A DNA stretch of 47,562 bases from a virus. The notes below the pieces were generated by a model. It was not told the DNA's origin. It ran no database searches and saw nothing but the letters and a program-made list of their open reading frames with translations. Shown here in pieces: positions 24,421 through 39,492 of the stretch (position 1 is the stretch's first letter; every line of letters starts with the position of its first letter). The position numbers and the translations under genes were made by a program. The stretch covers positions 1-47,562 of the IMG/VR virus record IMGVR_UViG_3300015206_000003; one strand, 5' to 3'.

Positions 24421-24638
24421 TCGCCCCTCGTGATGAAGTAGATCGGCGACTGGCAGGCGATCGCGTCGTGGGCGAGCTTCGTCATGGCTTCGAGTTGCCG
24501 ATCCCGCGCCCCGTCGTATTTGTCGAGCAGCTTCTCGAATTCGGCGAGCGAACACTCGCGCGACGCCTGGTAGAACGTCCGGACGAACGCCTGCCGTACC
24601 CCGTCGGCGAGGATCGTACGTGACGCCTTGTCTTTCAT
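24417..24638 (-). CDS. Hypothetical protein (73 aa)
   Basis: Soluble and helical (GVRQAFVRTFYQASRECSLA, FEKLLDKYDGARDRQLEAM). ATG overlaps the sigma stop as ATGA, so it is coupled to the sigma gene. It could be a partner of the sigma factor (for example an anti-sigma or modulator), which is only a guess from position. Confidence 0.6.
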   Translation of the reverse strand: MKDKASRTILADGVRQAFVRTFYQASRECSLAEFEKLLDKYDGARDRQLEAMTKLAHDAIACQSPIYFITRGE

Positions 24639-25255
24639 TCGCCTCTCACGCTGATTCCCACCATCGTACGCGCTTCCGCCAATTTAGCCCGCGTCCACGT
24701 CACGCTGCGTCCGACCTGCCGGGCCGTGACGGCGAGCGGCTGGCCGGCGAGCTGGCCACGCAGAACGCTCCGTTCGAGCGTCGGCAGCGCACGTATAGCG
24801 TTCTGCAAGACCCGGTGGATCTGCTCGCGTTCGGCCTGATCGTACGCGCTGGCGGTCCGATCGGTGTCGAGCGCGGGCGGCAGCCAGCCATCGTTAGCCT
24901 GTGCAATGGCTTGCAGCGATACGTTGCGCTCCTCGCGGTATGCACGCCGTTTCTGCGAATCGATGATGGCGCCGCGGACGCGGAAGTACGCATACGCTTC
25001 GAAGCCCGCTTGCGAGGCGCGCGACGGGCGATACGCATTCGCGGCCTTCACGAGCCCGACGTTTCCCGCCTGCGCGAGATCGCGAATGTCGATCGTGGGC
25101 GAGAACATCCAGCGGACCTCGCGCGCCACTCTGAGCACCATCGGGAGCAGCTCGACGATGGCGCGTTCGCGGTTCCAGCGTTTCCACGCCCCGTAGGCGC
25201 CCGCTTCCGATAGGGTTTTCCGTGTAACTGCCTGAGCCGACGAGCGCTCATGCAC
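24635..25255 (-). CDS. Phage-encoded sigma-70 family factor (FliA/WhiG-like)
   Basis: 206 residues from GTG 25255. Region 2 is clear (about residues 45-105): DIRDLAQAGNVGLVKAANAY, then FEAYAYFRVRGAIIDSQKR, with the conserved DLxQxGxxGL and YAxFRxRGAIxD residues for core binding and -10 recognition. Region 4 is near 150-200: ALPTLERSVLRGQLAGQPL and a helix-turn-helix VTARQVGRSVTWTRAKLAEA. Region 1.1 is absent and the linker is short, as in FliA/WhiG-type factors. It would redirect host RNA polymerase to phage late promoters. The start is supported by the stop of the preceding small gene just upstream. Confidence 0.85.
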   Translation of the reverse strand: MHERSSAQAVTRKTLSEAGAYGAWKRWNRERAIVELLPMVLRVAREVRWMFSPTIDIRDLAQAGNVGLVKAANAYRPSRASQAGFEAYAYFRVRGAIIDSQKRRAYREERNVSLQAIAQANDGWLPPALDTDRTASAYDQAEREQIHRVLQNAIRALPTLERSVLRGQLAGQPLAVTARQVGRSVTWTRAKLAEARTMVGISVRGE

Positions 25256-25274
25256 GATGTAGAAGTCCCAAAGG

Positions 25275-25421
25275 TTACTTGTGAGTGACAGGTTTTGCCG
25301 CCTCACGAGCGACCTTTTTCGCCGCCTCGCGGGCAACGGCGGCGGCATGGCGCTTCGCGACGCCTGCCAGCCGAACCCGCTCGCGAACTTGAAGGACATA
25401 CGAATCCCACAGTTTACTCAT
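25275..25421 (-). CDS. Small basic Ala/Lys-rich protein (48 aa)
   Basis: ATG 25421 overlaps the end of the HGG gene. After SKLWDSYVLQVRERVRLAG it becomes a basic Ala-rich helix (KRHAAAVAREAAKKVAREAA), resembling small DNA-associated helices. It sits directly before the sigma gene. The function is unknown. Confidence 0.5.
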   Translation of the reverse strand: MSKLWDSYVLQVRERVRLAGVAKRHAAAVAREAAKKVAREAAKPVTHK

Positions 25422-25890: not shown

Positions 25891-26211
25891 CTAAGCCGCC
25901 TTCCCGGGTCCGCTTTCGAGATTGAGCAGCCGCTTTTCGATCGCGTTGACGCGCATGAGCAGCTCGGCGGTGTTTGCGTCCGTCTCATCATGCCAGCGGG
26001 ACTGACGCGCAATCATCTCGATGCAGGTCGTCACGTTGGCGCCAGTCTTTCGCCCATGATCGAGAACGGCGCGGATTTCGCTGTGAAGCGCTCCGACTTC
26101 GGCGGCGATCAGGGCGGCGGTGCGGTCTTCGGAAGCTTGGACCACGCTCTCGATCTTTCCGCTTAAGCGCGATTCCATCCCATCGAGGTACGTCTTCAGC
26201 TCCTCGTTCAT
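25891..26211 (-). CDS. Coiled-coil protein (106 aa)
   Basis: Start at ATG 26211 (ATGA overlap with the exported gene). Helical throughout: ELKTYLDGMESRLSGKIESV, EDRTAALIAAEVGALHSEIR and TAELLMRVNAIEKRLLNLES. It is likely an oligomerising protein in the lysogeny-side operon. The short charged helices recall small phage proteins that accompany repressors or superinfection-exclusion genes, but no assignment is safe. Confidence 0.65.
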   Translation of the reverse strand: MNEELKTYLDGMESRLSGKIESVVQASEDRTAALIAAEVGALHSEIRAVLDHGRKTGANVTTCIEMIARQSRWHDETDANTAELLMRVNAIEKRLLNLESGPGKAA

Positions 26212-26675
26212 TTCGAATCCTTCGCGGGCGCGGCGGGCGGCGGAACGGCAACGGGCGCGGGATCGGGAGCTATCGCGAAGCCTCCCTCGCGGAAATAGCG
26301 GATAGCAGTTTCCTCCGAGAGGCCGTTCCGTTTCGCATACTCGCGAACCCTGACCATGCTGGCTACCGTCCCGGACCACTCCTTTTCGGTCATCGTCAGT
26401 TTGAACTCTTTGCCATCCTCGTCCTGTATGTAGAAGACGCCCTTCTCAAGGACAAATTTGATCAGGCCGTGAACTGTAACGTTTGGCATCGGCAGGAGCC
26501 GGATGCCTCCGATCGGAAGTCGCTCGTAATCGACTGTGAATCTATAGCCGTCGCGCTCGATCGTGTAAGTCGTGTAGGCCGCCCGGGCGAGTGTGCCGGT
26601 CTCCCACGCGCGATCTTTCGCGGCTAAGAGCCCGACGGACAGTAACAGCGCGAGAACTGCCGCCTTCGTTTTCAT
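26208..26675 (-). CDS. Exported protein of the lysogeny-side operon
   Basis: 155 residues from ATG 26675. The signal peptide is KTKAAVLALLLSVGLLAAKD. The mature protein has a small beta domain (YTTYTIERDGYRFTVDYERL, GGIRLLPMPNVTVHGLIKFV), a helical part and a Pro/Ala tail. It is translated from the operator-controlled leftward promoter together with the KGG and coiled-coil genes. Exported proteins from the immunity region often alter the host surface or block other phages, which is inferred here. Confidence 0.65.
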   Translation of the reverse strand: MKTKAAVLALLLSVGLLAAKDRAWETGTLARAAYTTYTIERDGYRFTVDYERLPIGGIRLLPMPNVTVHGLIKFVLEKGVFYIQDEDGKEFKLTMTEKEWSGTVASMVRVREYAKRNGLSEETAIRYFREGGFAIAPDPAPVAVPPPAAPAKDSK

Positions 26676-26851
26676 TTCTTTCCTTTTTTCGCGGCCTTCT
26701 TTTTCGGTTTCTCGGCTTCTTCCGCCTTTACCGCAGCCCATCGCGCCTGCACAGCCTTCCGCGCACTCTCGCTGCGTTCCTGTTTCGTTCGCGCGGCAGC
26801 AGTAGCCAGTCCGCCCTTTCTCCCAATTTCGGCGGTGTCGACCAGTGTCAT
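26672..26851 (-). CDS. KGG-type basic protein (59 aa), candidate DNA-binding regulator
   Basis: Opening TLVDTAEIGRKGGLATAAAR with the GRKGG motif, a charged helix (KQERSESARKAVQARWAAV) and a Lys-rich tail (KPKKKAAKKGKK). Proteins with this motif occur on mobile elements and are thought to bind nucleic acid; no structure-based function is known to me. It is the first gene leftward of the operator cluster. Its -10 (TATAGT) is exactly 7 nt before the ATG, and it overlaps the next gene as ATGA. It could be the repressor, a weak inference. Confidence 0.65.
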   Translation of the reverse strand: MTLVDTAEIGRKGGLATAAARTKQERSESARKAVQARWAAVKAEEAEKPKKKAAKKGKK

Positions 26852-26858
26852 GAAAATA

Positions 26859-26864
26859 ACTATA
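26859..26864 (-). promoter_or_regulatory. Leftward -10 hexamer TATAGT
   Basis: On the minus strand TATAGT is followed by TATTTTC and ATG 26851, a 7-nt gap. The -35 region falls near 26882-26887 inside the operator cluster and is weak (CAATAC). Operator 1 lies within the spacer. Confidence 0.6.
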
Positions 26865-26867
26865 CCA

Positions 26868-26884
26868 TACGCAGCAATTGCGTA
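26868..26884. promoter_or_regulatory. Operator 1, TACGCA-GCAAT-TGCGTA
   Basis: 17-bp palindrome with 6-bp arms and a 5-bp centre. It lies in the spacer of the leftward promoter and directly abuts the rightward -35 (26885). Confidence 0.75.
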
Positions 26885-26914
26885 TTGACATCATTCGCAA
26901 CCGCTGCGTATACT
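26885..26914 (+). promoter_or_regulatory. Rightward early promoter
   Basis: TTGACA (26885-26890), an 18-nt spacer and TATACT (26909-26914), close to the sigma-70 consensus. It drives the early arm from 26959. Its spacer and -10 are covered by operator 2, so a bound repressor would block it. Confidence 0.8.
26894..26910. promoter_or_regulatory. Operator 2, TTCGCA-ACCGC-TGCGTA
   Basis: Same 17-bp architecture with one arm change (TTCGCA for TACGCA). Centre is 26 bp from operator 1. It overlaps the rightward -10. Confidence 0.7.
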
Positions 26915-26926
26915 TCAGGTACACGG

Positions 26927-26943
26927 TACGCACCGGTTGCGTA
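26927..26943. promoter_or_regulatory. Operator 3, TACGCA-CCGGT-TGCGTA
   Basis: Perfect arms around CCGGT. Centre is 33 bp from operator 2, downstream of the expected rightward start site and upstream of the AAAGGAG ribosome-binding site. Confidence 0.75.
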
Positions 26944-26958
26944 TAAAAGGAGCCCACC

Positions 26959-27183
26959 ATGCAGGACAACGAATACGAATACGCCGAATACGAAGCGCAG
27001 AACGAACGCGAAGACGCCGCCCGTCAACGCCGCGAGCGCGAAGACGAAACGAACCCGATGGTAGTCGAACGCCGCATGATCGCGCGGGTGAATGTGGCGA
27101 TCAGCGAGATCTTCGCGGACGCCGCCAGCCGGATCCGGACGACGGAAGAGTCGGACATCGAAATGGAACGGAGGACGCGCTAA
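26959..27183 (+). CDS. First early gene, acidic/charged protein (74 aa)
   Basis: Has a normal ribosome-binding site (AAAAGGAG about 7 nt before ATG), unlike many late genes. Acidic and Tyr-rich start (DNEYEYAEYEAQNEREDAA), then a helical Arg/Glu-rich region (IARVNVAISEIFADAASRIR). First position behind the main early promoter suggests an early host-takeover or regulator role; nothing specific can be assigned. Confidence 0.7.
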   Translation: MQDNEYEYAEYEAQNEREDAARQRREREDETNPMVVERRMIARVNVAISEIFADAASRIRTTEESDIEMERRTR

Positions 27184-27753
27184 ATGGCAACCAACGGATT
27201 CTATCCGCAGAACGGCAGCGCGGTCATGCCGCCCACTGGCAAGTTCAAACCGACGGTTGGACTGCCGCAGATCGTAGCGCTCGCCGCCGTAACGGGCGAG
27301 ATGGTGTCGTCGCAGTTTGGCGAGAGCGAAGTAAAGCTGATGCTGACCAACGGACAGCCCTGGTACGTCGCGCAGGCGATGGCGGACGCGATCCGCACGT
27401 CGGGCATTCAGCCGAGGCAGCAACTCGAAGTCACCAAAACGGGTAAAGGACCGATGGACTGGAAGATCGTGCCGTTACAGGCTCATTTGGGGGGAGCCCC
27501 TGCGGCCGCGCCTCCGCAGACGGTAGTTGCAGGGACTCCCGCGGCTGCGCAACCGCTCGCAACATCGCAACAGACACAGCATAGCGCCCCCAAGTCGCAG
27601 CTCGCGGCTTGCTTCGAACAGGCGTGCGACGCCATCAAGGGCGCGCAGGCCTACGCGAACAGCATCGGCCTCGGAATCACGTTCACGTCCGAAGACGTGC
27701 GCTCGACCGCGATCAGCGCGTGCATCGGTTGCCAGAAGGGAGGCTCACGATGA
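27184..27753 (+). CDS. Early DNA-metabolism-type hypothetical protein (189 aa)
   Basis: The N-terminal domain (residues about 10-100) reads KPTVGLPQIVALAAVTGEMV, VKLMLTNGQPWYVAQAMADA and QQLEVTKTGKGPMDWKIVPL, a small beta/alpha unit. A Pro/Ala/Gln linker follows, then a helical C-terminal domain (LAACFEQACDAIKGAQAYAN, GITFTSEDVRSTAISACIG). This two-part layout occurs in early phage proteins next to Gp157-like genes. GGAGG lies about 11 nt before the ATG. A nucleic-acid-related function is possible; no family is named. Confidence 0.65.
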   Translation: MATNGFYPQNGSAVMPPTGKFKPTVGLPQIVALAAVTGEMVSSQFGESEVKLMLTNGQPWYVAQAMADAIRTSGIQPRQQLEVTKTGKGPMDWKIVPLQAHLGGAPAAAPPQTVVAGTPAAAQPLATSQQTQHSAPKSQLAACFEQACDAIKGAQAYANSIGLGITFTSEDVRSTAISACIGCQKGGSR

Positions 27754-28388
27754 CGCCTCCATCACCAGTAGCATCGCTACTCGAAAGCGCTGCCTCGATC
27801 ATCGACTGGTCCGCCTGCGACGTCCCGCCCGGGACGTTCGGGCTGGCCGTCGTTCCGAAGGCGGCGGCGCCACGCGTTTCGTTGCGGGCGCACATCGAAG
27901 GCGTCGAAGGTATCGCCGATACGATCGAAGGCCTCGACGACGAAACGCTTTCGGCCGAAGAACGCGACGAACTGAGCGCCATGCTCATCGCCGCGATCGC
28001 CGGCACGAAACGCAAGGTGGACAACACGTCGAATGTTCTTGCGATGTACGAAGCACTCGAAGCGGGCGCAAAAGCTGAAAAGGAACGTCTCGCCAAACGC
28101 GAGGCGTTCTACGCGCGCCAGATCGAGCGCCTGACCGATTACGTCATCGCCACCATGACGACGTCGAATCTGCCGAAGCTCGAAGGCGAGACGTCGACCT
28201 TCGCGCTCCGGAAGAATCCGCCGTCGGTCGTAATCGAAGCGGGCGCCACGTTCTCGCACGAATTCACGGCGTATCCGGACGCGCCGCCGCCGCGGCCGGA
28301 CAAAGATGCGATTAAGCGCGCACTGAAGGCAGGGCGCGCGATCGAGGGCGCGAGCCTGCAGGCAACGATGCGGCTGGTGCGCTCGTGA
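27750..28388 (+). CDS. Gp157-like phage protein
   Basis: 212 residues; ATG overlaps the previous stop. Central coiled coil (AAIAGTKRKVDNTSNVLAMY, EAGAKAEKERLAKREAFYAR) followed by LTDYVIATMTTSNLPKLEGE, TFALRKNPPSVVI, PDKDAIKRALKAGRAIEGA. The R-K-x-P-P-S-V and D-K-x-A-I-K-x-A-L-K-A-G motifs are characteristic of the Siphovirus Gp157 family, implicated in host resistance or replication-associated roles with unclear mechanism. The N-terminal 60 residues differ from the usual family length. Confidence 0.75.
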   Translation: MTPPSPVASLLESAASIIDWSACDVPPGTFGLAVVPKAAAPRVSLRAHIEGVEGIADTIEGLDDETLSAEERDELSAMLIAAIAGTKRKVDNTSNVLAMYEALEAGAKAEKERLAKREAFYARQIERLTDYVIATMTTSNLPKLEGETSTFALRKNPPSVVIEAGATFSHEFTAYPDAPPPRPDKDAIKRALKAGRAIEGASLQATMRLVRS

Positions 28389-28700: not shown

Positions 28701-29690
28701 TCAGAGGGCGCCGGCGAGAGGATTTCTGCCGGCGAAGAGACGAGTGCCGCGCACGTACATCTGCATCACCTTCGCGCTTTCATGCCCCGACAACTTCATA
28801 ATCTCCTGATCGCTCCTGCCCAATTCGGCCGACGCAGTCACGGCGCCGGCCCGCAGAGAGTGCGCGCCGAACTGTGCGGTATCGAGTCCCGCCCGCGCAA
28901 CCGCCCGCTTGACCACTTCATTGACGGCATCGCCAGCTATTGCCCTGTGCGTCAGCCGGTCGCCTGCCCTGACGGCACAGAAAAGCGGTCCGGCCCAATC
29001 GCCACGCTTCTTGATCCACGCCTTCAGCACCCGAACCGGATCGGTCGCCGCCCGCTTCCCGGGCCATACTGCAATGATGCGTCCGCGCCCGTTCTGGTCC
29101 GTTTTCGATTTTCTGTTGACCACTACGAGCCCCTGCGCATTGAACGTCACGTCGGCGAGTTGCAGCCGTACCAGTTCAGACCGCCGCAGCGACGTGGCGA
29201 AGCCGAGCACAAGCACGGCTCGGTCCCGCATACCAAGATTCGTCTTCGCATCGCAGCCCTGCGCGACGCGAAGAAAGTCGTCTGTTGCCAAAGGGGCTTT
29301 GCCGCGTGGCTGTTCACCGCATTCGCGACGCACCGCGCAAATCACCTGACGGGCATCGGCGAGAACCGGCACCGGCCGGCCTTCCCGCCTGTGTCGATCG
29401 ACGATCGCCGCCAAGTGACGCGCCGCGGTCGAGCAGCGCCGTTCCGCCGCCGAAAGCAGCCAGGTCACGTACAGGCTCGCGGTTTCGGCGTTGCACGGCA
29501 TCGGCACGCGGCCGGCATCAGCGCACCAGCGCTGAAACACAGCCCAATCCGATGCATACCCGCGCACCGTCAGATGCGCCCGCACTGCGTTTCTCAAATC
29601 TTCGCGGCGCCTTCTCAGGGCAGCCATATCGACACCTCCATACTCGAACAGCCGGAGCTGTCCATCCCTTCCGTCGTCATCTTTAGCCAT
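28701..29690 (-). CDS. int: Tyrosine integrase
   Basis: 329 residues. The N-terminal SAM-like part (AVFQRWCADAGRVPMPCNAE) is followed by the catalytic domain with the expected order: Arg in ATSLRRSELVRL near 167, Lys in NRKSKTDQNGRGR near 193, the H-x-x-R box AHSLRAGAVTA near 277, GH in KLSGHESAKVM near 301 and the nucleophile Tyr in MQMYVRG near 311. It catalyses site-specific recombination of phage and host DNA. The gene points leftward between two rightward operons. An attachment site is expected nearby but is not identified. Confidence 0.92.
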   Translation of the reverse strand: MAKDDDGRDGQLRLFEYGGVDMAALRRRREDLRNAVRAHLTVRGYASDWAVFQRWCADAGRVPMPCNAETASLYVTWLLSAAERRCSTAARHLAAIVDRHRREGRPVPVLADARQVICAVRRECGEQPRGKAPLATDDFLRVAQGCDAKTNLGMRDRAVLVLGFATSLRRSELVRLQLADVTFNAQGLVVVNRKSKTDQNGRGRIIAVWPGKRAATDPVRVLKAWIKKRGDWAGPLFCAVRAGDRLTHRAIAGDAVNEVVKRAVARAGLDTAQFGAHSLRAGAVTASAELGRSDQEIMKLSGHESAKVMQMYVRGTRLFAGRNPLAGAL

Positions 29691-32024: not shown

Positions 32025-32239
32025 CGCCCGACCCACCCCGCATAATTCTCGATCCGATGACGGTCGCGCGCCTCGTCGCGAAACTCACCCCGGCGGAAGA
32101 CGCCGAGCTGATCAAAATCATCGAAGGCGCAGGCGACGACGAACTCGAAAAGTGCACGCGGACGTGCGACTGGCTGCTGAAGCGTTTCCCGCAAGTCGCC
32201 GTCTCGATACGGCGTTCGGCGGCGGCGAGAACGAACTGA
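32021..32239 (+). CDS. Hypothetical early protein (72 aa)
   Basis: ATGA overlap. Helical, with LDPMTVARLVAKLTPAEDAE, LIKIIEGAGDDELEKC and LLKRFPQVAVSIRRS. It ends at the start of the helix-turn-helix gene (TGATG). The function is unknown. Confidence 0.6.
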   Translation: MTPDPPRIILDPMTVARLVAKLTPAEDAELIKIIEGAGDDELEKCTRTCDWLLKRFPQVAVSIRRSAAARTN

Positions 32240-32544
32240 TGACGCCCGCTCAACTGCTTGCCCGGGACGTGGGCGCCACGCGCAAACGCCTGCACCTGAC
32301 GATCGCCGTGATGGCGTGGCAAATCGGCATTTCGGAATCTGCTTTGCGCCGCATCGAAAACGGGACGTCGAAGAACACGCACGGCGATACGGCGTCCGCT
32401 ATCGTTGCGTGGGCTGCTAACCGCGGCTACCGCCATTTCGGCGGCGTCCGCATCGACTGGCCCGTATCGCGCGCAACGTCGTTTTTCAATACGCGGCGGC
32501 GCCGCGCCGATGACGAGGACGAAAAACAGGGAGGTTTGTTCTGA
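32239..32544 (+). CDS. XRE-type helix-turn-helix regulator (101 aa)
   Basis: The N-terminal 65 residues match an XRE/Cro domain: LLARDVGATRKRLHLTIAVM, AWQIGISESALRRIENGTSK with a turn G-I-S and recognition helix, and a fourth helix. The C-terminal half is basic and acidic mixed. It is a plausible regulator of early or lysogenic transcription, possibly the factor binding the operators at 26.87-26.94 kb, but this is not shown. Confidence 0.7.
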   Translation: MTPAQLLARDVGATRKRLHLTIAVMAWQIGISESALRRIENGTSKNTHGDTASAIVAWAANRGYRHFGGVRIDWPVSRATSFFNTRRRRADDEDEKQGGLF

Positions 32545-33300: not shown

Positions 33301-33855
33301 ATGCCATCCTCCGCCGCAAAGCCAGCACGCACCGCAACCATGTCGAAAGTCGAAGTCATCGAGTACCTCGGCAAGTCCAAACGCACGGTCGAGACGTTCG
33401 TCTCGAAGGGCCGTCTGGGCGTTTCCTACTTCGAAGGGCCGAACGGAAAGACCGCGATTTTCCAGCGCGAGGAGGTCGAAGCGCTGAAGCGCGATATCGA
33501 CACGCCGACGTACCGGGCGACGCCCGAAACGGCGACATCGCGCCAGGGCTTCGCGCACTTCGGACCGACGCCGCCGTCTCGTCCGGCGCTCGTTTCCGCT
33601 CCGTCCGCGTCTGGCGGTTCGCTCGGCGTCACCGATCTGGCGATGATCTTTGCGCGTGCCGCCGAGTATGCAAAGCCGCCCGCGCCCGTGACGATGCCCG
33701 GGCCGTTCGTCGGGCTCGCGGAAGCGGTCGAACTTTCGGGGATGCCGGCGTCGTGGCTCCTCGCACAGGCGCGCGCCGGTGTGCCGTGGGCGGTGAACGT
33801 CGGGACCGGGAAAAAAGCGTTCTGGCGGTTTGCGATTGCGGGAGGCAGGAAATGA
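33301..33855 (+). CDS. Helix-turn-helix DNA-binding protein (MerR/excisionase-like)
   Basis: 184 residues from ATG 33301. The upstream ATG 33223 (ATGA-coupled) would add 26 residues of doubtful sequence, so this start is preferred because a promoter-like element precedes it. The N-terminal winged helix reads KVEVIEYLGKSKRTVETFVS, KGRLGVSYFEGPNGK and AIFQREEVEALKRD. A Pro/Ser-rich linker (residues 70-125) leads to a second small helical domain (PFVGLAEAVELSGMPASWLL, AQARAGVPWAVN). It could be a repressor, excisionase or transcription regulator. Confidence 0.65.
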   Translation: MPSSAAKPARTATMSKVEVIEYLGKSKRTVETFVSKGRLGVSYFEGPNGKTAIFQREEVEALKRDIDTPTYRATPETATSRQGFAHFGPTPPSRPALVSAPSASGGSLGVTDLAMIFARAAEYAKPPAPVTMPGPFVGLAEAVELSGMPASWLLAQARAGVPWAVNVGTGKKAFWRFAIAGGRK

Positions 33856-34164: not shown

Positions 34165-34370
34165 CGCTGGAGCAAATCAACATCCTCGCAGCCGAAGTGA
34201 AGGCCGGTCGCGCCTCGCGGACCTGCCCGCCTCACATGCCGGTCGTGGTGCATCGAATAGGCGGAACGAACGCCGCGCTTAATAACGTCTGCGGGAAGTG
34301 CGGCGAGCACCTCGTCCGCGAATCGGTCGATCGCGAATGGACGGTTAGCGACCCGCCAGCGCCGCTTTGA
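34161..34370 (+). CDS. Last early protein, zinc-binding (69 aa)
   Basis: Begins TLEQINILAAEVKAGRASR with Cys/His residues TCPPHMPVVVHRIGGTN and CGKCGEHLV, a possible zinc site. Its end overlaps the end of the convergent 1715-residue gene by 26 bp. The function is unknown. Confidence 0.6.
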   Translation: MTLEQINILAAEVKAGRASRTCPPHMPVVVHRIGGTNAALNNVCGKCGEHLVRESVDREWTVSDPPAPL

Positions 34371-37300
34371 CGTCCGCCAGCGTCTTCGCGCGATCCGCCG
34401 GCGCCTCGCGCGCGAGCGCCGCCCGAAACTTCCGCATGAACATTGGCTGAAGCAGTTTCTTTTCCGTCGCCGTCGATGCGCTGTAGACCTTCACGGCATC
34501 GTCGATCGACAGACTGAGAAACGAACGCTCGATCGGGCTTTCCCGCGACGCCCGTACCGCCATCTCGATATCCTGCCTGGAAAACTTCCCTGCCTGCTGT
34601 GCAGCCTTCACGTCCGCCGGCACACCCTTGTGGTTCTGCAGCGATCGCGTGAGCGAGCTGCGAAGCGTCGAGCGTTCGGCCGCTTCCGGCGTACGTGTTT
34701 CGTCGCCGTGCGAGGCCAGCTCGTGCGCCATGCGTTCGGCCGGCGACTGGTCGAGGTCGGCGTTCGCCGGCGAAAGCCCGACGAACTGCTCGGCCTGTTG
34801 TCCCGGGGACGCGCCCAGGTTCTTTTGCCGCAAAGCGTTTTCGATCGAGCGCGGTTCAAACTGCTTTGCCACGAACTTGCCAACTTCACCAGCCCGCGCA
34901 AGCGGCGAATCGTCCGGATTCTGGATTTGGACGTGCCAGAAATCGCTGTTACGCAGCAATTCAGAAAACAGCGTGATCGCGGGCGCCACTTTGTTTTCGA
35001 GCGTCGTGACTGGGTGACGGGCGAAGGAGTGAACGTCTTTCACGTAGCTCATCAGAGACGTGCGCTCCGCATGGCCGTGCTCGTCGGTCTGCCCGTTCTT
35101 CGGGTAGAAGTAGTCTTCGCCTTCTTCCGGCCACTTGCCGGTATGCAGGTATTGGTAGAGCGCCGCATACGCCATGTGGAACATCAGCATCGAGCCGATG
35201 TAACTCAGCCGCTTCAGGTTCACGGGCTCGCCACGCATCGCGTTGATCGGCTGTCGAACGACGTCCACCGCGGCGCCGCCAATCTCGCGGACCGTGCCGA
35301 GAAAGTACTGATCGGCGCGCATCATGAACATCGAGAGGTCTTTCACGTAGCGATGCGTAAAGAAGTTGTCGCGCGCCACTTCGCCCATGCGGTTGTCAAC
35401 CGAGTTGACGGTCTCAGCCATGACGCGTTGCACGTCGGCATAGGCTGCATTCGGTCCGAGCCGTGCGAGATCGGCCGCCGCCATATCCGCCATCGTGCCC
35501 ATTTTCATGCGCGGTACAACTTCGTCCATGATGAGACGCGTCAGCGCTTCCATGCCGGCGAACGGCGCGCGGATCGCAGCTCCCGGCAGATTCCCCTGGC
35601 TCATCGCCTTGACCATGTTCTCGGCAATCGTAGTCCGATACATCTGATCGAGGCGGGCGCGCGCGCCGCCCGAGGTCAGATCGTTCATGATCTTGCCGAT
35701 CACCGAGCCCTGCGAGCCTGGCGTGTACCACTCCTTCAGATACTTGCTGCCACTGACCCAGGCCGTGAACGGCGCCGCCGGCGCGGCTACGAGATTCCGT
35801 GCGCCCTCGATCGGGTGGCCGCGTGCGATCTGTTCGAGACCGATCGAGCCCTTGCTGATGGTCGCCTCGAAAGCGGTTTTCGTCAGATGGAATCCGGACA
35901 GGCCGAGGTTGAACAGGTTCATGACGTTGTTCAGGCCCATCGCGGCGCGAAACGGGGCGTAGCGGCTGAGACCGGGTGAAAGGTAGTTATCCACCATGCG
36001 CGCCGCGCCGTCCGGAAGATACCAGTGGCCTTTGATGACGAGGCCGCCGACGTCGTACGGTTGCGCGATCGCCGTCACTTCGGTATTGCCTTCAATGTCA
36101 CGCAGCGCGTGCAGCTTCGGATTCTCGTCGAGGAACTTCTTCCACTCGGCGTACACTTTCGGCGCCGTCCGTTCGAACAGTTCGCGTGAACCCACCCACA
36201 TTTCGGCGAGTTGCGCCATCTTCTCTTCGCGCTTGCGGGTGTATTCCTTCCTGCCGCCTCGCAGGTCCGCCAGATCGCGAAGCTGTTTCTGGAATTCTTT
36301 GCGCTGCGCGATCGCGCCCTTGAGATTCTTCAGGTCGACGCGGGCCGCGGTGCGATCGGCCGGCGCGCTCGCTTTGTCCTTCAGTGTGGCGTAGGCACGT
36401 TTGAGCCGTCCGACTGTAGCCGCGTCCGGATACTCCAGCACGAACCGCTTTCCGGATCCGGCCAGCCAGTCGATCTGGTGGCCGATCTCGTGGGCGACGA
36501 CGTCCTCGGCGGATCCGTGCAGCGTCTTGATGCCGCCGCCAGCCTTATCCGCACGGCCGACGGCTTCGCCGAGACTGAGGAACCCGCGATCGTGCTTGAT
36601 GCCGAGCGCGTCGGCGACTTTGTGCAGGCCAGTCCAAAGCCCCTCGTTCGGGAATTCGCTGATCTGCTGGATGCTCTGTCCGTAGACCGTGCCGATGGGA
36701 TCCTGAAGCTGACGATAGCCGAACGGTGCTTTCCCATCCCGCGCGTCGACGTAGCGCGCCGCCATTGCGGGATCCTTCAATATCCGGTGGCCCGCGACGT
36801 ACTTATCCATTTCACGAATCTTGAGCAGCGTCATCGTGACGGGGTTGTCAGTGAGCGGCTTGAGGCCTGCGGCGAGACCGTCCGCGATCGTCGGATACGT
36901 GCGTTTCTTCAGAAACGATTTGCCGCCCTCGAGCGGACGCTTCCCGAAAAACGCCTGCATCACCGTTTTGGCACGCTCCGGTTTAGCCCAGATGTGAGCG
37001 AAGTAGTTTTCGTAGAAGTTCCGGAGCTTGCCCGTGCCGAGCGCCTGGACCATATCGCGGCGGTCGTTGTAGAGATCGCGCAGCAGCTTGGCAACGGTAT
37101 CGAGGTACGGAGATTTCTGCTTTTGCCCGGTCTCCATCCGGTTGATGAAGTCGAAGTTGTCGGCCGCCGGCTGCCGGTTGAAGTACTTCCTGGCTGTACG
37201 AACCGAATGCTCAGCCTGATCGGTGCGCCGCGCGAGTTCCCCGATATGGCCGCGAATGATGAGTGAGGCGAGCTTTGAGGAGCGATCGACGAGCGACGGC

Positions 37301-39492
37301 CAGAGCATTTTAGCGATGTCGTCGTAAGTATCGCGGATACCCGTCGCAACGTTGCGCAGCACCGGTGCAACGTCCTCGCGAATGAACGTCGGAATGCCGA
37401 GCGCCAGCAGCTCGGGCGAGACGGCGCCCGAACGCGGATCGGAACGGTCGCCGAACGAAGCGGCGAATGCGTCGGCGGGATCCGGTTCGCCGAACAGGCT
37501 TTTCTCAGTGCTCATGGCGTGCTGCGGATCCAGTTCCGATTCGTCGATTTCGCGCACGAGGATCGGCTGTTTGTATTTCGCGAGTTCCGCCGGATAGAGG
37601 CCGAAATGCGCGGCCTTGGCGACAAGCGTCGCGCGGTATTCCGCCGCGCCCTTGGGGTTCAGGGAGTAGACGCGTTCGAGCGCCATGCGGCGATTGTTGC
37701 CGCCGAGCACGTTGCCGTAGCGATCGATGATTGAGGGGCCGTTGATCGCGTCCGGGTTCGTATTGATGACCTTGACCGGACGGAAGCGGGATCCGCTGGC
37801 TGTGACAACGCGCTGACGGTTCGCCGGCAGCGAATAGTCTCGGTCGTTGATGTAGTGAAAATCGGGATTCGGCTCGAACGAAAAGGGATTGTGCGACGGG
37901 TAGGTGTCGCTCAGCTCGCGGACGGCGTAGCGGGCTTTGTAGGGCTCGTCTCTTCCTTCAGCATAGACTTCCGTCTCTGCGCCGCTCGTAACTGGATGGC
38001 CTGGCCGACGAGGTTCTGGAACCTCTTTCCCTTCGCCTGCGGGCTGTTCGGATTGGGCTTCGGCTGAGGCTGCGCTTCCGGCATGACTTGATTCTACAGT
38101 TGGCGCGGCCGCACTGGAACCCGAAATCTCCTTCTGGGGAATTTTCTCGGTACCGGTACCGGAGGGAGTGACCGGCGGTTTCTGATCAGGGGGTTTCTGA
38201 TCGGCCGCATCGCGAATCATCCTCGCACGTATCGCCGTCGTTACGGGCTCGGGCTTCTCTACTTCCGTTTCTTCGGCTGCGGGTTTCCCGCCGCTTGCTG
38301 TAAGTTCCGGAGCAGGTTTGGCGGGCTCTGCTTTTTCGCCGGCGGGCGCGACGGTGGTTTTGGTTTCATGTGGTTTCTCCTTTTCGGGTTCGGACGCGAC
38401 GACGTTCCAGCCGGGCGGGACGGCGGGCGCCTGATCGGGTTCCTTGATTCGTTCCTGCCACGCCGAGTACTTCTCGCCCCGCAGACGCTTTCGCGGATCG
38501 ACGGTCTTCGTTTCGGGCGTCGCGGCTTTCGTCTCGATCAGCGGCGCAACCGGTGCAGCTTTCGGGGTTTTCGTCTTGATAACGGGCGGTTTCGTTTCGG
38601 CCTCGGGCGCGCGAACGCCGCCGATCGGCTGGCCCGTCGACGTGTACTGAACGGGCGCCGGCGTTTCGGGTTTCGGCGTTGCCTTGGCGAATCGGGCTTT
38701 GAGGATGGGTTCGTATTTGGCCCTCAGCGCATCAACGGTCTTCGCGGTCTTCGCGCCGGCAAACAATCCCACAAGGTCGCCGGCAACAGCGGCATACTCT
38801 TCCGGAAGGCCGATCTTCTTAAGCGCTGCCTCGGCCGTCGTCTGCGCGGCCATCGTTGTGGCAAGAGTTGCTGCAGTCGCGATTGGCGCCGCGGCGCCCG
38901 CGCCTGCCATCAGAGGCGTGGCAGCTTCAAACACCCCGCCGATAGTTTTGTGGAGGCCCCCGGCTTTTTCGCGCAGCGTCGGGCGCGACATCTGTTCGAC
39001 GCCTTCGACCGCGTTAGAACCGCCCGTGAGCGGCGTATCGAGAACGCTCAGCGGTCCGCGTTCCTGCCCGGGCGCGACCATCGGAGACGTTGCCCCGGTT
39101 CGCGGATTTCTCCACTTCGGTGCGCTCGCACGCGACTGCGCATCAGTCTGGAGTGCCGAAGGAAGTGGCGGCGGCGGTACTGGAGGCGCTGCCGTCTTCA
39201 GGTGCTGAAGCAACGCTTGCGTGTCGATGGGCTGCGTGCCGGTTACGTGCCCCGCGATCGCCTGCGCGTTCTGAGTCGTGATCGCGTCCGCCTGATCGGG
39301 GTGCATCAGAGTGCCGGGCGGTTGTAACGCAGGCGGTGCAGCGACGGGCTGCGCGGGTTGCACAGCCGGTTGAGACGGTGCGTCCGGCGTCGACGAAACG
39401 ACGTTCCAGCCGCCACTCGCTTGAGTGGGCGCGGAAGGCGCCGGCGTATCCGGAACGGACGAGACGACGTTCCAGCCGCCCTGATCGGGCAC
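34345..39492 (-). CDS. Polyvalent ejected-type virion protein (1715 aa) with ParB-like and zincin domains
   Basis: Starts at GTG 39492. Repeats of GGWNVVSS (residues 5-35) and PPGWNVVAS (near 365) in a long Pro/Ala-rich N-terminus, then a hydrophobic stretch near 195-230. Around 530-650 lies a DdrB-like ParB-superfamily domain (ASGSRFRPVKVINT, NGPSIIDRYGNVLGGNNRRM, YKQPILVREIDE). A zinc metallopeptidase motif HEIGHQIDWLAG is near 1000. The C-terminal 600 residues are helical and resemble tail-ejected parts. Such polyproteins are carried in the capsid and delivered with the DNA to protect or process it. It overlaps the last early gene by 26 bp. Confidence 0.8.
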   Translation of the reverse strand: MPDQGGWNVVSSVPDTPAPSAPTQASGGWNVVSSTPDAPSQPAVQPAQPVAAPPALQPPGTLMHPDQADAITTQNAQAIAGHVTGTQPIDTQALLQHLKTAAPPVPPPPLPSALQTDAQSRASAPKWRNPRTGATSPMVAPGQERGPLSVLDTPLTGGSNAVEGVEQMSRPTLREKAGGLHKTIGGVFEAATPLMAGAGAAAPIATAATLATTMAAQTTAEAALKKIGLPEEYAAVAGDLVGLFAGAKTAKTVDALRAKYEPILKARFAKATPKPETPAPVQYTSTGQPIGGVRAPEAETKPPVIKTKTPKAAPVAPLIETKAATPETKTVDPRKRLRGEKYSAWQERIKEPDQAPAVPPGWNVVASEPEKEKPHETKTTVAPAGEKAEPAKPAPELTASGGKPAAEETEVEKPEPVTTAIRARMIRDAADQKPPDQKPPVTPSGTGTEKIPQKEISGSSAAAPTVESSHAGSAASAEAQSEQPAGEGKEVPEPRRPGHPVTSGAETEVYAEGRDEPYKARYAVRELSDTYPSHNPFSFEPNPDFHYINDRDYSLPANRQRVVTASGSRFRPVKVINTNPDAINGPSIIDRYGNVLGGNNRRMALERVYSLNPKGAAEYRATLVAKAAHFGLYPAELAKYKQPILVREIDESELDPQHAMSTEKSLFGEPDPADAFAASFGDRSDPRSGAVSPELLALGIPTFIREDVAPVLRNVATGIRDTYDDIAKMLWPSLVDRSSKLASLIIRGHIGELARRTDQAEHSVRTARKYFNRQPAADNFDFINRMETGQKQKSPYLDTVAKLLRDLYNDRRDMVQALGTGKLRNFYENYFAHIWAKPERAKTVMQAFFGKRPLEGGKSFLKKRTYPTIADGLAAGLKPLTDNPVTMTLLKIREMDKYVAGHRILKDPAMAARYVDARDGKAPFGYRQLQDPIGTVYGQSIQQISEFPNEGLWTGLHKVADALGIKHDRGFLSLGEAVGRADKAGGGIKTLHGSAEDVVAHEIGHQIDWLAGSGKRFVLEYPDAATVGRLKRAYATLKDKASAPADRTAARVDLKNLKGAIAQRKEFQKQLRDLADLRGGRKEYTRKREEKMAQLAEMWVGSRELFERTAPKVYAEWKKFLDENPKLHALRDIEGNTEVTAIAQPYDVGGLVIKGHWYLPDGAARMVDNYLSPGLSRYAPFRAAMGLNNVMNLFNLGLSGFHLTKTAFEATISKGSIGLEQIARGHPIEGARNLVAAPAAPFTAWVSGSKYLKEWYTPGSQGSVIGKIMNDLTSGGARARLDQMYRTTIAENMVKAMSQGNLPGAAIRAPFAGMEALTRLIMDEVVPRMKMGTMADMAAADLARLGPNAAYADVQRVMAETVNSVDNRMGEVARDNFFTHRYVKDLSMFMMRADQYFLGTVREIGGAAVDVVRQPINAMRGEPVNLKRLSYIGSMLMFHMAYAALYQYLHTGKWPEEGEDYFYPKNGQTDEHGHAERTSLMSYVKDVHSFARHPVTTLENKVAPAITLFSELLRNSDFWHVQIQNPDDSPLARAGEVGKFVAKQFEPRSIENALRQKNLGASPGQQAEQFVGLSPANADLDQSPAERMAHELASHGDETRTPEAAERSTLRSSLTRSLQNHKGVPADVKAAQQAGKFSRQDIEMAVRASRESPIERSFLSLSIDDAVKVYSASTATEKKLLQPMFMRKFRAALAREAPADRAKTLADVKAALAGR

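Follow-up and report, generated by a model that had tools for sequence, protein, structure and literature searches.

In phage lambda, the right operator region OR contains three operators of about 17 bp that are common to divergent promoters, the repressor gene diverges from the early operon, an integrase is encoded in the same genome, and cI is expressed from PRM with a leaderless start close to the -10 element. Very small phage repressors are also known, such as Arc and Mnt of P22, ribbon-helix-helix (RHH) proteins that act as oligomers on palindromic operators. A further arrangement is found in GIL01, where the small phage protein gp7 is reported to act with host LexA on the lysogenic promoter (PMC4551915). 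The locus considered here belongs to the viral record IMGVR_UViG_3300015206_000003, analysed over its whole length of 47.6 kb (the window, which is possibly a fragment), and consists of three palindromic operators adjoined by a gene for a 59-residue protein carrying the motif GRKGG (the KGG protein). There are good grounds for regarding this small protein as the operator-binding protein of the locus and probably also as its lysogeny repressor.

The three operators, O1 (TACGCAGCAATTGCGTA, 26868..26884), O2 (TTCGCAACCGCTGCGTA, 26894..26910) and O3 (TACGCACCGGTTGCGTA, 26927..26943), match TWCGCA-N5-TGCGTA exactly and are the only exact matches in the 47.5 kb of the window, and 100 dinucleotide shuffles of the window contained none. 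They lie on both sides of, and extend into, a strong rightward early promoter, TTGACA-18-TATACT (26885..26914, plus strand), the sole sigma-70-like match in a scan of 26600-27200, where 0.1 would be expected, and they abut a leftward promoter. O1 separates the leftward -10 from the rightward -35 and ends right before the latter, O2 occupies the space between the rightward -35 and -10 with a 2 bp overlap into the -10, and O3 is situated just past the inferred rightward start point. The leftward promoter, which serves the KGG gene, is the weaker of the two and has a -10 element (TATAGT, 26859..26864, minus strand) without a good -35. Several operators common to divergent promoters, one for the putative repressor and one for early genes, are likewise found in the related loci L004 and L015, where the order O1, -35, O2, -10 is seen again. 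An earlier note on this DNA had described three 17-bp operators at divergent promoters, next to a leftward gene for a 59-residue GRKGG protein; operators and gene are confirmed, and of the promoters the rightward one stands as described, whereas the leftward one lacks a good -35.

The KGG gene is an open reading frame at 26672..26851 (minus strand), whose proposed role as operator-binding repressor draws on its relatives and their covariation with operators. Its ATG follows the -10 by 7 nt with no Shine-Dalgarno sequence, and the gene is probably translated leaderless. Where the -10 is strong, the start codon of KGG genes lies 6-7 nt after it in 40 of 52 cases, and therefore most of these genes are predicted to be leaderless. 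The protein carries GRKGG...RKAVQARW and conforms to the core GxxGG-x-A-[RT]-x...T-x-E-x-R...RKAxxARW, by which the RKGG-ARW family is defined here.

Profile searches identified relatives of the KGG protein both among viral contigs and in genomes of Acidobacteriota, 43 of 396 of the latter having a match at an E value of 1e-5 or better. Palindromes of the form TACG-N7..12-CGTA were sought in a stretch of 220 bp preceding the KGG core, with other stretches of the same loci as control. They accompany 17 of the 37 closest relatives (0.30 expected) and 7 of the 22 in the next class (0.22 expected), which adds up to 24 among 59 close relatives where 0.5 would be expected, an enrichment of about 50-fold. 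Among distant relatives the palindrome occurs little beyond chance (2/43, 0/31 and 1/34), and such operators are not seen with a sizeable set of KGG proteins that are extended at the N-terminus (ATGxxxPEKNPAAVALGKLGG type), for which reason the claim is confined to close relatives. The genes across from the KGG gene vary, including early phage genes, IS1-like transposases (L034, L040, L043) and unrelated chromosomal genes, and the KGG gene is the sole constant neighbour seen at operators. A generic palindrome test without base requirement was discarded as too weak to separate signal from background.

Operator length follows two features of the adjoining protein, a four-residue KGGx insert and the type of flank before the first G, which occur in all four combinations. 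Operators measure 16 bp with an AVALG flank (NPAAVALG-like) and no insert, 17 bp with another flank and no insert, 18 bp with insert and AVALG flank, and 19 bp with insert and another flank, corresponding to a rule of 16 bp, plus 2 for the insert and plus 1 for a non-AVxLG flank. Sites were called blind to the protein, by a T.C...G.A palindrome pattern 14-21 bp long in which the six outer pairs had to be perfect, and the predicted length was found in 35 of 39 loci with such perfect-arm sites, whereas 5000 shuffles of the proteins averaged 11.6 and never exceeded 22. Among loci fetched after the rule had been stated, every site called for relatives with scores of at least 50 had the predicted length (8/8), although some of these loci are close kin of earlier ones and the test is not wholly independent; weaker relatives in the fresh set contributed four further sites off the rule, about 2.4 chance sites being expected in that set. 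Paralogues within a single genome each have their own operator, of 18 bp (L149) and 19 bp (L191) in G520, and of 18 bp (L144) and 19 bp (L187) in G618.

The bases of the operator also vary with the protein, particularly with residues 17 and 18 in the numbering of the window protein (G13 G14 L15 A16 T17 A18). Proteins with RA at these positions have GT as half-site bases 4-5 in 65 of 84 half-sites (TACGT), those with TA have C at position 5 in 14 of 16, bases 4-5 being GC or TC, and RV and RL are paired with GA (8/8 half-sites) and TA (6/6), respectively. The mutual information between residues 17-18 and bases 4-5 is 1.42 bits, and none of 2000 shuffles exceeded 0.78. In the window, T17, A18 and R21 of the protein go together with TACGC in the sites, and in L004 and L015, whose proteins are its nearest relatives, R17 goes together with TACGT. 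The ATA pairing extends over two length classes, TACGC or TGCTC being found also at ATA proteins with the AVALG flank, among them L016 and L171. For the window itself, absence of the insert and an LVD flank correspond to 17 bp and ATA to TACGC, and both are seen, but the window helped to set the rule.

Since operator length and bases both covary with the KGG protein, direct recognition is indicated, and it is very probable that the KGG protein binds the operators itself. AlphaFold2 predicts helices: the window protein, modelled as a monomer, has a helix at 6-20, a long helix from 23 and no strand (predicted local distance difference test, pLDDT, 78), and the insert-bearing L040 protein has helices at 8-19, 21-28 and then 31-53, its first part being longer (pLDDT 69). 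A one-turn insert that adds 2 bp would fit a dimer whose half-site distance is set by helix 1. Such a dimer might contact two TACGC half-sites through the segment around GRKGG-L-A-T17-A18 and the helix starting near T22. Occupancy of O1 would cover the leftward promoter region and lead to autoregulation, occupancy of O2 would cover the rightward -10, and occupancy of O3 would block the start of the early transcript. In a lysogen, early genes such as that for Gp157 would be kept off and the repressor level balanced, and lytic growth would start once the operators are vacated.

Several observations weigh against this account. Most of the loci in the count of 35 of 39 also served to derive the length rule, L155 and L028 have 16 bp sites where 17 bp is predicted, the RA proteins of L042 and L173 have A at position 5, and L175 departs from the rule. 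Shared ancestry inflates the shuffle statistics, and the proteins are short and their tree poorly resolved; the best tree has nine changes of the insert and six of T17, and only one or two independent pairs lie on well-supported branches, too few for a sign test. Both structural models are only moderately confident, and repeated Foldseek searches against the PDB gave no match to a solved relative; matches to cytoglobin were taken as chance. A repressor elsewhere is conceivable, as the window may be a fragment, and the sequence is compatible with a Cro-like as well as a CI-like role of the KGG protein.

Coincidence would be one explanation for the palindromes, which could be replication, packaging or RNA hairpin signals lying near KGG genes by chance. 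A scan of viral contigs for operator pairs did return only palindromes without adjoining KGG genes, including pairs of TACGCA-N5-TGCGTA in L006-L011, which look like an independent matter. The palindromes considered here lie on promoters, are about 50 times as frequent as expected upstream of close relatives of the KGG protein and covary with it, leaving this explanation scarcely credible. A host repressor, LexA-like or other, could also bind the sites, with the KGG protein at most a helper; GIL01 offers a published precedent (PMC4551915). One conserved host protein is nevertheless hard to reconcile with operators whose bases and length differ among phages and track the adjoining KGG protein, and because operator type matches the respective KGG paralogue even within one genome, a shared host factor is an unlikely source of the pattern. 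The host-repressor explanation is accordingly held to be very improbable, though slightly less so than coincidence.

More weight is due to the view that the KGG protein binds the operators merely as a Cro-like early regulator or autoregulator, immunity being conferred by another protein such as that of the XRE gene near 32239. Many chromosomal KGG genes do look simply autoregulated, with an operator on their own -10, and an XRE gene is present in the early region. The earlier note had listed this gene together with a MerR-type gene at 33301; the former is in place, its match to HTH_3 (helix-turn-helix, HTH; 32281-32403) being weak, and the latter looks more like Xis than a repressor, because it matches an excisionase family in addition to HTH_17. 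The XRE gene is part of the rightward early region, a position in which a repressor maintaining lysogeny would itself be silenced, whereas the KGG gene points leftward, divergent from the early operon. No HTH_3 gene is detectable in the related records G852, G853, G856, G858 and G859, which have both operator and KGG gene, and in L013 and L017 the integrase gene follows the KGG gene on the same strand. A purely regulatory role of this kind is consequently considered rather unlikely. In the phage of L014, the KGG gene has no operator and stands behind another gene of the same strand, and two strong HTH_3 genes are found instead.

That the KGG protein is the lysogeny repressor of the window phage is considered likely, if less firmly so than its binding to the operators. 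The phage is probably temperate, because a tyrosine integrase (28701..29690, minus strand; Phage_integrase, E 7e-18) is encoded in the same genome as the proposed switch, a gene that the note had not listed; integrases were found in 7 of 13 viral records. No S24-type CI gene was found anywhere in the window, in agreement with the earlier remark that no classical CI lies next to the operators, nor in the 13 related viral records, and an HTH_3 protein was undetected in 6 of 12 related viral records. The non-standard repressor suspected in the note finds good support, the KGG protein having been singled out of the three candidates by virtue of relatives that possess such operators, covarying in length with the indel and in bases with residues 17-18.

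Compared with lambda, the window has three 17-bp operators, a divergent gene for the proposed repressor, a probably leaderless start near the -10 and an integrase, and it probably works like a lambda-type switch, a known kind of system. Unlike CI, the KGG protein has 59 residues and no recognisable HTH_3 or S24 autocleavage domain (no HTH_3 match in Pfam, S24 in 0 of 13 records), and for want of the S24 domain lambda-like RecA-dependent induction is not expected. Like Arc and Mnt, it is a very small phage protein with palindromic operators; unlike them, its monomer model, at pLDDT 78, is all helical with no N-terminal strand. Neither the window protein nor its relatives matched any HTH family in Pfam or any RHH family. 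GIL01 gp7 is likewise small, phage-encoded and active at a lysogeny promoter without CI, but it works through LexA (PMC4551915), whereas the covariation of KGG proteins points to direct recognition. The KGG repeat PF10685 (stress-induced acidophilic repeat) has the KGG motif in common and shows weak similarity to 4 of 28 members (best E 0.037), below the curated cut-off and with the window protein not among the matches listed; the literature searched revealed no DNA-binding role for it. By these tests, the KGG protein lies outside the CI and KGG-repeat families and probably outside RHH.

No family in Pfam or NCBIfam covers the KGG relatives, direct searches of named phages and plasmids gave no matches, and literature searches found no description of the KGG or RKGG-ARW family, so that this family of DNA-binding proteins is apparently undescribed so far. 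In PHROGs, most relatives match only families of unknown function, notably phrog_2384 (function unassigned), matched by 27 of 28 members tested (best E 6e-8), whose N-terminus corresponds to the KGG segment. The window protein does not possess the large C-terminal part of phrog_2384. Longer proteins, such as the phage protein of L027, have the KGG segment N-terminally; upstream of the L027 open reading frame lie a 17-bp palindrome without mismatch (TACTTGCTGAGCAAGTA) and another half-site, which suggests that the KGG domain works in fusions too. Solibacter-type chromosomal KGG proteins (L035, L037, L038, L045) have a common conserved C-terminal extension, TSKKALHLCLKRIK...QRIVFHRQYQNAEN. KGG genes of the 18- and 19-bp operator classes are divergent from IS1-like transposase genes in L034, L040 and L043 (and, by inspection, L005 and L041), as if the KGG protein also regulated transposition there.

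Other features of the window complete the picture. The rightward early operon begins with a gene for a 74-residue protein (26959..27183, plus strand) and includes a Sipho_Gp157 / Gam-like early gene (27750..28388, plus strand). On the leftward side, a second gene (26208..26675, minus strand) overlaps the KGG stop codon by ATGA and encodes a small protein with an apparent signal peptide and no Pfam match; exported-looking genes without Pfam match that overlap the KGG stop are also next in L004, L016 and L022, and these genes, of which the one in the window is translationally coupled to the KGG gene, are possible candidates for lysogenic conversion. The window also encodes a terminase; adjoining the terminase genes in the leftward structural region is a gene for a protein with sigma-70 region 2 (24635-25399, minus strand), possibly a phage sigma factor for late genes. 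A 1715-residue protein (34345-39492, minus strand) contains a ddrB-like ParB domain.

On balance, and with only modest confidence, RKGG-ARW proteins may represent a class, overlooked until now, of minimal proteins that bind DNA sequence-specifically, are probably all-helical and follow a modular code, in which a one-turn insert determines operator length and two or three residues determine the half-site bases. They would serve as stand-alone repressors of Acidobacteriota phages, IS1-like elements and chromosomal genes, and define many immunity specificities. If this is correct, the many unannotated proteins of 50-70 residues that make up this family in Acidobacteriota and in phages of that phylum would acquire a function, and a family of very small repressors would be available in which the protein partly reveals the sequence it targets. 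The way in which temperate soil phages lacking CI may remain dormant would likewise be explained, and a 60-codon gene with its promoter could be used to assign metagenomic phages to predicted immunity groups.
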